Source: Sphaerobacter thermophilus DSM 20745 (GTDB lineage Bacteria; Chloroflexota; Chloroflexia; Thermomicrobiales; Thermomicrobiaceae). Taken from it: 64,000 nt of DNA. The DNA lies in NCBI RefSeq assembly GCF_000024985.1, contig NC_013523.1:1178001-1242000 (forward strand). Reading direction: 5' to 3'. The translations under genes and the position numbers were made by a program. Each line of letters opens with the position of its first letter. The stretch's first letter is position 1. Shown piece by piece: positions 20,353-25,097 of the stretch. Under the pieces are notes generated by a model that did not search any database, was not told the DNA's origin, and saw nothing but the letters and a program-made list of their open reading frames with translations.

Positions 20353-20610
20353 CTACCGGCTGGGTGACCGGCGCCGAGCGTAGGCGTTCTCCAGGAGATG
20401 GTCGATATCTTCGTTCGTGAAGAGATACGTTTGCGGCACCCCGAATGTCGAGTCCGACCGTGAGTCGACCGTCGCGTACGCCTTGATGAGGAACCCCTCG
20501 GGCGTCTCGATCAGTGCGATACGCGTGAACCGGTGTTCATCCAGATAATGACCGATCGCGCGGAATGTGTCCTCGTATCGGACGCGGCGCGTACCGGTGT
20601 GATCGAGCAT
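20353..20610 (-). CDS. Small protein of unknown function
   Basis: An 85-residue protein, MLDHTGTRRVRYEDTFRAIG at the start, not recognised. It is predicted alpha/beta: a helix near residues 12-25, strands IALIETPEG and LIKAYATVD, then a helical C-terminus (NEDIDHLLENAYARRR). The ATG at 20610 has a purine-rich AGAGGGGG site. It lies 52 bases after the thiamine-diphosphate enzyme gene on the same strand and may be cotranscribed with it. No catalytic motif is apparent. Confidence 0.6.
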   Translation of the reverse strand: MLDHTGTRRVRYEDTFRAIGHYLDEHRFTRIALIETPEGFLIKAYATVDSRSDSTFGVPQTYLFTNEDIDHLLENAYARRRSPSR

Positions 20611-22535: not shown

Positions 22536-23378
22536 ATGGTTTACGGGAAGCCTGTGCTACCTGCGCGTGTTGATGAGCTAGAACGGGTCCGTCTCGAACT
22601 CGAGCTGCGCCGCCGCACGCTGGCGCTCGAGCAACTCCGGGCGCTCCTCACCGAGGAGGAAGCGGCCCAGGAGGCGCTACGCCGTCGCATCGAGGATCGA
22701 CTGGGACCGCTGCGGCGGGAGATCGAGCGCCTGAAGGCCGAGCTCGAGCGGATTGACCAGCGGCTCCAGCGGCTGCAGTTCGCGCGGCAGTCGCTCAGTG
22801 ACGAAGAGCTGGACCGCGAGGAGGAGACCTTCCGGGCCGAGGAAGCGGCCTGGTGGGCCGAATGGCGCCACCGGCGCGCCGAGCGGCAGACGCGGCGCGG
22901 CGAGGTGGTGAATCGAAACGGCCACGACGACATCACCCTACGCCAGCTTTACCGAACGCTGGCGCGCCTGGTGCATCCAGACCTGGCCCGCGACCCCGCC
23001 GACCGCTCGCGGCGGGAAGCCGTGATGCGCCTCGCCAACTCGGCGCGGGAGGCGGGCGACCTGGATCAGTTGCGACGCCTCCTGGCCATCTGGGCCCGGC
23101 CGGACGAGGGCGAATGGCCGCGTGATGTCGAGATCCTGCGGGCGCGGGTCGGGCAGCGGCAGGTGGAGATCGGAGAAGTACGCCGCCAGCTCAACAATCT
23201 CCGACGGCAGCCGATGGGTCGCCTGCTGCGCCGGGGTGACCTCGAAGTCCACCGCTACCTGCGCGCAGAAGAGGTGCGCCTCAATCGAGAACTTGCCATG
23301 CTCCGGCTGCGCCGGCGCAGGGCGTTGCGGCAACTCGAGGAGCGGCGTCGCGAACTCGGGGTCTCGGCAGCCGAATAG
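22536..23378 (+). CDS. Coiled-coil protein with J-domain-like HPD segment
   Basis: About 280 residues. Residues 12-120 are a highly charged coiled coil (repeats of LERVRLELELRRR type). Residues 132-190 resemble a J domain: LYRTLARLVHPDLARD with HPD at 147-149, then a helix ANSAREAGDLDQLRRLL. A second charged helical stretch (200-275) closes the protein. HPD normally stimulates an Hsp70 partner; that role is inferred. The ATG at 22536 has GAGGAGGG almost abutting it, so a downstream GTG at 22554 is possible. No Hsp70 gene is nearby. It precedes the nuclease-like gene at 23505 on the same strand. Confidence 0.75.
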   Translation: MVYGKPVLPARVDELERVRLELELRRRTLALEQLRALLTEEEAAQEALRRRIEDRLGPLRREIERLKAELERIDQRLQRLQFARQSLSDEELDREEETFRAEEAAWWAEWRHRRAERQTRRGEVVNRNGHDDITLRQLYRTLARLVHPDLARDPADRSRREAVMRLANSAREAGDLDQLRRLLAIWARPDEGEWPRDVEILRARVGQRQVEIGEVRRQLNNLRRQPMGRLLRRGDLEVHRYLRAEEVRLNRELAMLRLRRRRALRQLEERRRELGVSAAE

Positions 23379-23504
23379 CGGCACTCCACAACATCTTCCA
23401 CCCGGCGCTCCATAATGCGTCGTGTTCCGCGCTTCCCTGCTATGCTTGGGATGTAGTGCCCAACGGGCGATCGTCTCCCGGGCGGCCGGCAGTGGAAGGA
23501 GCGG

Positions 23505-24776
23505 ATGGCACTCGTGAGCCGACGTGCGGCGGCAAGTGGCCCTGGCGCCTGGCGTTGGCGCGGTCGGGGACCGTCCATGCGGGCGGTGGAGGGCAACGTC
23601 GTATCCGAAAAGGTTCCCGGCGGGTCCCTCATCGCCGCGGTGCTGGACCGCGAGTTGATGGCGTGGAGCGACCGCGGCGGCGCCAGCCGCTACCTGGGCG
23701 AACGCTGGTCCGAGCAGTGCACAGTTGCGCTCGAAGAGGCCGTCGGCTCGGAGGTGCCGGTGCCGCGGGGGCGACCATTTACGCTGCGCGCGGTCGTCCG
23801 GCTCGATGAGAACCCCGAGATTGCGATCCAGGCCGGCCAGCACAAGCTCGTAAACCCCGACTTCGTCCTCTACGGGAGCCGTGATGGCGAGGAGCACATC
23901 CTCCAATCGGCCGATGCCAAATTCGCGGTCGATACTATTCGCTCGCCCCAGGTGAGCGCAGCGGCACTTGAGGCGCTGCTGGCGGTCGAAGGGGGGCTGG
24001 TGGGCGCGGCCATCGAGGCCAAACTCGGCGGCCCCGTCGGTGACCCGTACCGGGTCGAGCAGGGAGTGTTCCTCAGCCCGATCAGCCCGCTCACCGACTA
24101 CTTCCTGCCGCGCGTGACGTCCGGCCCGGGGGCACCGGTCGACCCACAGGAGGTCATCCTGCTACCGGTGGACCCGGTGGCCATGTTCACCGGTCTGCCG
24201 ATGACGCGGCTGATCGGCATCCTGGCCCGCATTGACCGACTCCCGGTCAGCCCCCGGGAGAACATCCTGTCAGCGATGTACTACTTCCGGCTCGCTTGCG
24301 CCTGCGCGTGGATGTGGGTCGAGGAGCACACACCGCTGCTCAGCAACGACCCGCCGCCGGAGGTCGATCCCACCGGCCTGGCCGACGAGACCAGCCGCCG
24401 CGTTCGGGGCGCACACACCGCCTATGAGGTGGTGCAGGAGTGGTACGAGACCGTAGAGCGCGTGTCGCGGTCCCGGCAGGAGGTCCGCTCCATGGCGGTG
24501 ATGCCGGTGCGTATGAGGGAAATCCGCGCGATGGTTGAGGCGGCGGGGCTCGGCGAGGATCGAGGTGTCCTGCGCCGGGTGCGTGGTGCGCTGGAGCGAC
24601 GGTATCGGACGCGGCTGGTAGAGACGGTCGGAGAGATCCCGGCCCGGCCCAACCGGCCACTGCCCGCCATCCTCGAGGACGTCGCCAATGCCAGCCGTGG
24701 GCTCTATCCAGAGCTGCGCCGTTTGGCCGCCGAACTCGTCGAGCGCGAGGCCGCCGAGGCGCGCGGCGAACGGTGA
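23505..24776 (+). CDS. Unrecognised protein, possible PD-(D/E)xK nuclease fold
   Basis: 423 residues, no known family recognised. Residues 60-145 carry a pattern like the PD-(D/E)xK nuclease core: E70 in a helix (GERWSEQCTVALEEAVG), then VNPDFVLYG (P118-D119) and, after a turn, ILQSADAKFAVD with D137-x-K139. The rest is mostly helical, with paired segments around MYYFRLACACAWMWVEEH and a basic C-terminus. AAGGAG precedes the ATG at 23505. It lies 126 bases after the J-like coiled-coil gene, same strand. The nuclease idea is inference from spacing of acidic and lysine residues only. Confidence 0.7.
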   Translation: MALVSRRAAASGPGAWRWRGRGPSMRAVEGNVVSEKVPGGSLIAAVLDRELMAWSDRGGASRYLGERWSEQCTVALEEAVGSEVPVPRGRPFTLRAVVRLDENPEIAIQAGQHKLVNPDFVLYGSRDGEEHILQSADAKFAVDTIRSPQVSAAALEALLAVEGGLVGAAIEAKLGGPVGDPYRVEQGVFLSPISPLTDYFLPRVTSGPGAPVDPQEVILLPVDPVAMFTGLPMTRLIGILARIDRLPVSPRENILSAMYYFRLACACAWMWVEEHTPLLSNDPPPEVDPTGLADETSRRVRGAHTAYEVVQEWYETVERVSRSRQEVRSMAVMPVRMREIRAMVEAAGLGEDRGVLRRVRGALERRYRTRLVETVGEIPARPNRPLPAILEDVANASRGLYPELRRLAAELVEREAAEARGER

Positions 24777-24803: not shown

Positions 24804-25097
24804 TCAGTCCAGGTGCATCACCTCGGTCGCCACGTCGGCGAGGTAACCCGCCTGCAGGTTCCCCTCGATGAAGCGGATGACCGTCTGCATCGTGTCGTCG
24901 ACATGGCGAGACGAATTGGAGAGGCAGACGAAGGCGACGGTGGCGACCTGCCAGGAGTCCTGATCCGCTACCTCGGCGATCGACACGTTGAAGCGCGCCC
25001 GGACTCGTTCAGTGAGCGAGCGCACGACGCGGCGCTTCTCCTTGAGCGAGTGCGCCTCCGGCATCTCGATCGTCAGGTGGCAGATCCCCAGGACCAC
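24804..25097 (-). CDS. DUF503 family protein (YlxP-like)
   Basis: A 97-residue protein. VLGICHLTIEMPEAHSLKEKRR at the N-terminus is the DUF503/YlxP signature, followed by VRARFNVSIAEVADQDSWQ. Ferredoxin-like small proteins of this family are often found beside ribosome-biogenesis genes in Firmicutes, but their function is unknown. A GTG at 25097 with an AGGGAG site upstream gives the family's usual length. Here it ends a run behind an FAD oxidoreductase, 20 bases downstream of it, an unusual neighbour. Confidence 0.9.
   Translation of the reverse strand: MVLGICHLTIEMPEAHSLKEKRRVVRSLTERVRARFNVSIAEVADQDSWQVATVAFVCLSNSSRHVDDTMQTVIRFIEGNLQAGYLADVATEVMHLD

Follow-up and report, generated by a model that had tools for sequence, protein, structure and literature searches.

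A probable new chromosomal PD-(D/E)xK family in Chloroflexota, mainly single-copy, with a possibly relocated third carboxylate

The active site of the central PD-(D/E)xK nuclease superfamily is usually described as two or three acids and a lysine, a third carboxylate being common but dispensable (PMC551604); in some members a residue of the second half-motif, either the lysine or the acid, is relocated (PMC551604). The COG4636-type nucleases (migrated lysine; PMC551604) and the Cfr10I/NgoMIV-type enzymes (migrated acid) are thus precedents for residues that move while the site is kept. Among described proteins, those closest to the family presented here are structural matches to its predicted nuclease-like domain: the nuclease domains of BsmI, FokI and PaqCI, which rank best (Z 6.0–6.9); EndoMS/NucS and Hjc (Z 5–6), which have a comparable chromosomal single-copy lifestyle; and the defence nucleases HamA (Hachiman) and SduA (Shedu) (Z 4.5–6.8).

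Here we describe two consecutive genes, P0001 and P0002 (Table 1), in a stretch of 64,000 nucleotides (hereafter the window) of the Sphaerobacter thermophilus DSM 20745 genome (two contigs, 3.99 Mb). P0002 very probably represents an undescribed, mainly single-copy, chromosomal PD-(D/E)xK family, so far seen in Chloroflexota only, the one phylum covered by genome-scale profile searches. With the superfamily it shares the core topology of its model, the PD and DxK half-motifs and a near-invariant glutamine after the DxK strand. Unlike the superfamily's Pfam, NCBIfam and PDB members, to which it has no detectable sequence similarity, P0002 carries a long C-terminal helical domain and, in the window's lineage, lacks the helix glutamate. 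The best explanation of the whole, which we consider likely, is a chromosomal nuclease family with a D119/D137/K139 site, a moved third carboxylate and a processing role, with P0001 as a separate protein. The superfamily is known; new are the family, for which no database model exists, and possibly a variant of the active site.

Both P0001 and P0002 are real proteins, because purifying selection on them is strong (pN/pS against the nearest relative is 0.04 and 0.05, respectively). Coordinates, strand and residues of both genes agree with the initial annotation. A later start of P0002, at the ATG at 23577, is possible, because residues 1–19 have low confidence in the structure model and relatives mostly align only from about residue 25–33.

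Table 1 Features of the P0001–P0002 locus (positions in the window)
Feature	Position	Strand	Description or basis
P0001	22536..23378	+	280 aa; N-terminal coiled coil, J-like segment, C-terminal basic helical region
P0002	23505..24776	+	423 aa; proposed new PD-(D/E)xK family
P0002 nuclease-like domain, residues 28–236	23586..24212	+	AlphaFold2 model, structural matches
Residue 69 (Ser), position of the relatives' helix glutamate	23709..23711	+	Alignment
D101, directly after the first core strand; candidate replacement carboxylate	23805..23807	+	Alignment, homologues in genome G024
D119 of the PD half-motif	23859..23861	+	Conservation
D137-A138-K139, DxK half-motif	23913..23921	+	Conservation
Q149, directly before the following helix, near-invariant	23949..23951	+	Conservation
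P0002 C-terminal all-helical domain, residues 235–423	24207..24773	+	AlphaFold2 model

The initial annotation had recognised no family for either gene as a whole, and neither protein passes any curated family cut-off. Single-protein and profile searches of Pfam, NCBIfam, PHROGs, PADLOC and PDB sequences with P0002 gave nothing significant, and a literature search found no paper on it. The gene, to which no function is assigned, is kept by most of the order: it was found in 50 of 61 genomes (25 of the 28 good ones), as a rule in one copy. Profile searches also detected relatives in 38 of 400 sampled Chloroflexota genomes and in at least 14 Chloroflexota families outside the window's class. Several genomes of the window's own family lack P0002 or hold a broken copy, and the gene is therefore dispensable there. 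In genus g6 of this family (loci L071, L078, L049 and L077), P0002 appears to be decaying, being divergent in G007, fragmented in G010 and G013 and missing from G016, with P0001 intact.

D119, D137 and K139 are invariant in all 58 aligned members of the P0002 family, and Q149 is kept in 57 of them; two other analyses agree on these four residues. The acids and the lysine of the (P)D...Xn...(D/E)xK pattern are thus conserved throughout, with the PD and DxK half-motifs 18 residues apart in P0002, whereas the proline of the PD half-motif (P118) is not universal among homologues. The initial annotation had proposed a nuclease core from the spacing of E70, P118-D119 and D137-A-K139. These residues are present as described, and the proposal survives for D119, D137 and K139; E70 varies among the 58 members and is rejected as a catalytic residue. 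Residue spacing alone is weak evidence, because PD-x(8-30)-[DE]xK also occurs in 14 of 406 other proteins of at least 250 aa encoded in the compared loci, all 14 with an upstream glutamate. At the level of sequence, it is conservation, not spacing, that is decisive in treating the predicted nuclease motif as real.

Full-length P0002 was modelled by AlphaFold2 with a mean pLDDT of 92.9 and a pTM of 0.88, and the domain alone with values of 89.7 and 0.83. DSSP assigns helix 60–78, strands 92–99, 120–126 and 130–138, helix 152–159 and strand 182–192, in the same order for the domain alone. Both models thus contain a mixed β-sheet core in α-β-β-β-α-β order, the restriction-endonuclease-like arrangement, in which D119 directly precedes the second core strand and the DxK half-motif ends the third. 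Nearly all of the best 50 VIA-align matches of domain 28–236 are PD-(D/E)xK proteins. The top match is BsmI (Z 6.9, 138 aligned residues, 4.2 Å), and HamA (6.8), XisH (6.5), NucS (6.2), PaqCI (6.2) and FokI (6.1) are also matched, as are EndoMS, Bax1, Hjc, McrC, Can2, MspJI and BamHI. The full-length model likewise matches PD-(D/E)xK proteins, over residues 57–230. Every single structural match has a Z below 8 and all Foldseek E-values exceed 0.001; against viral models, Foldseek gave only E-values above 0.3. The predicted PD-(D/E)xK assignment accordingly draws on many weak, independent nuclease matches together with the invariant residues, and not on any one match. With invariant D119, D137 and K139, near-invariant Q149, the core topology of the models and matches almost exclusive to the superfamily, the nuclease idea of the initial annotation appears right in kind.

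The two clades of the family, which together provide a clear test set of about 60 aligned members, differ at the catalytic helix. Within the first core helix, all 20 relatives from outside the order have glutamate at column 69 (G-x-R-W-E), and all 38 members of the window's lineage have alanine or serine. The main P0002 lineage forms one side of a fully supported branch of the tree. D101 is fixed in the same 38 members, and aspartate is found at this column in 6 of the 20 outside homologues, each of which also has E69. The swap between E69 and D101 is therefore not strictly exclusive, since these six hold both acids. Genome G024 belongs to a deeply branching family of the order; its two P0002 homologues, both very divergent, lie on separate contigs (L166 and L167), retain the glutamate at column 69 and lack D101. 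By topology, the ends of strands 92–99 and 130–138 and the start of strand 120–126 should lie at one edge of the model, which would place D101 next to where the second strand begins and so near D119. D56 was considered as the replacement acid, being present in 37 of 38 members of the lineage, but it is also found in 6 of 20 outside homologues and sits before the helix, and D101 is preferred.

The simplest reading suggested by these alignments is a relocation of the carboxylate. More specifically, the third catalytic carboxylate may have moved from E69 to D101, where the first core strand ends, by way of intermediates that still live as homologues with both acids, and may so have produced a new active-site variant; we put this forward tentatively, as somewhat short of an even chance. 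The migrations known from COG4636-type and Cfr10I/NgoMIV-type enzymes differ from it, as the residue that moves there belongs to the DxK half-motif (its lysine or its acid), whereas in the P0002 lineage it would be the third carboxylate, borne by the helix. The family would then be a natural case of active-site rewiring in PD-(D/E)xK nucleases.

Some proteins with the PD-(D/E)xK fold are non-nucleases, and the window's lineage, with alanine or serine for the helix glutamate in 38 of 38 members, could have kept the fold as a binding or structural factor and be catalytically dead. We consider this unlikely, because D119, D137, K139 and Q149 are still conserved in the lineage without E69 and D101 is fixed exactly where E69 was lost; moreover, two acids and a lysine can suffice in the usual description of the site (PMC551604).

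If P0002 is an active nuclease, D119, D137 and K139 of the domain at about residues 28–236 would bind one or two Mg2+ ions and activate the water that cleaves the phosphodiester bond, and Q149 would support this site. D101, in place of helix residue 69, would probably supply the third carboxylate in the window's lineage, and the C-terminal helical domain probably serves in substrate binding or oligomerization. P0002 is most likely a nucleic-acid-processing nuclease of the chromosome, which would act in the processing or repair of DNA (or RNA) rather than in restriction or phage defence.

A more specific role could be imagined in mismatch repair or Holliday-junction resolution, for which P0002 would stand in as EndoMS/NucS or Hjc do elsewhere. 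NucS, EndoMS, Bax1 and Hjc are indeed among its structural matches, and a search with PF01939 shows NucS to be missing from the Sphaerobacter genome and from nearly all relatives in the order. P0002 itself, unlike EndoMS/NucS, does not match PF01939, and the same genomes encode MutL (28 of 28 good genomes) and RuvC (27 of 28), P0002 carriers included. Since both are present, nothing obvious needs replacing; a replacement of MutL or RuvC by P0002 is rejected, and we regard the broader stand-in role as very unlikely.

Gene context argues for P0002 as a stand-alone chromosomal enzyme. No conserved functional neighbour across the phylum was seen in the compared loci. In family f3, P0002 lies downstream of a conserved set of surface-polysaccharide-like and membrane genes, and in family f2 and other classes the surrounding housekeeping genes differ from lineage to lineage. 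A multi-spanning membrane protein of about 700 aa without a Pfam match (cluster c1; L095 5851–7944 and equivalents) is encoded upstream, but as a constant neighbour within f3 alone. In 23 compared f3 loci its gene immediately precedes P0002, and is itself preceded there by flavoprotein, GtrA-like and glycosyltransferase-like genes. In one distant genome (L152 6312–8188), a single case, the P0002 homologue overlaps a downstream endonuclease III-like gene by four bases.

The context also sets P0002 apart from its best structural matches. Unlike BsmI, FokI and PaqCI, the family was noticed in no restriction-modification context and is single-copy and widely kept; unlike HamA and SduA, it was seen beside neither a HamB-like helicase nor any other defence gene. 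A PADLOC profile search with P0002 matched no catalogued defence protein, and at the sensitivity used no match was obtained on plasmids, phages or viral contigs. These results lend no support to the defence module that the initial annotation had considered as one possibility.

P0001 carries its HPD motif at residues 147–149, in a J-like segment of about residues 131–186, and the motif and its surrounding residues are invariant in all 17 relatives. With J-domain proteins (PF00226) it shares the invariant HPD in a Y..LAR..HPD helical pattern; unlike them, it has a coiled-coil flank, stays below the Pfam cut-off (17.6 bits against 27.8, E 0.004) and has no Hsp70 among its scanned neighbours. Sub-threshold matches to DnaJ were obtained for 16 of the 17 members (E up to 0.1, best 0.00027), and the P0001 profile weakly finds solved J-domains (PDB 2qsa, E 0.00013). 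Both the J-like segment and the lack of a nearby Hsp70 had been noted in the initial annotation and are borne out here.

P0001 and P0002 adjoin on the same strand only within the window's own family, in the genomes that have retained both. The matched segments there range from a 38-base overlap to 144 bases apart, with about 1.2 kb between them in one case. The initial annotation had suggested a pair conserved across Thermomicrobia, and the neighbourhood comparison restricts it to this family. The adjacency could reflect a functional module in which a J-protein and a nuclease act together in nucleic-acid processing or phage defence. However, near-complete genomes G004 and G016 hold P0001 without P0002, and in G010 and G013 only P0002 fragments lie beside it; the two genes are on different contigs in f2, and in f3 and other classes P0002 has no adjacent P0001. 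Neither protein matched plasmids, and the negative PADLOC result bears on this reading as well, which we think quite unlikely. As P0001 persists without intact P0002 in four genomes and is encoded on a separate contig in f2, it is independent of P0002, which makes a dedicated module of the two genes unlikely. From its motifs, P0001 would be a separate coiled-coil, J-like putative co-chaperone whose adjacency to P0002 is lineage-specific.

The neighbours scanned around the two genes comprise a thiamine pyrophosphate (TPP) enzyme, DUF503, an FAD oxidoreductase, a 2-hydroxyacid dehydrogenase and a CBS protein. Beside the TPP-enzyme gene, an 85-aa open reading frame (window 20353–20610, minus strand) with no Pfam match occupies the same position in nine of the loci compared within the window's own family. 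The DUF503 gene (window 24804–25094, minus strand) is convergent to P0002, an arrangement that is kept in several genomes of this family.
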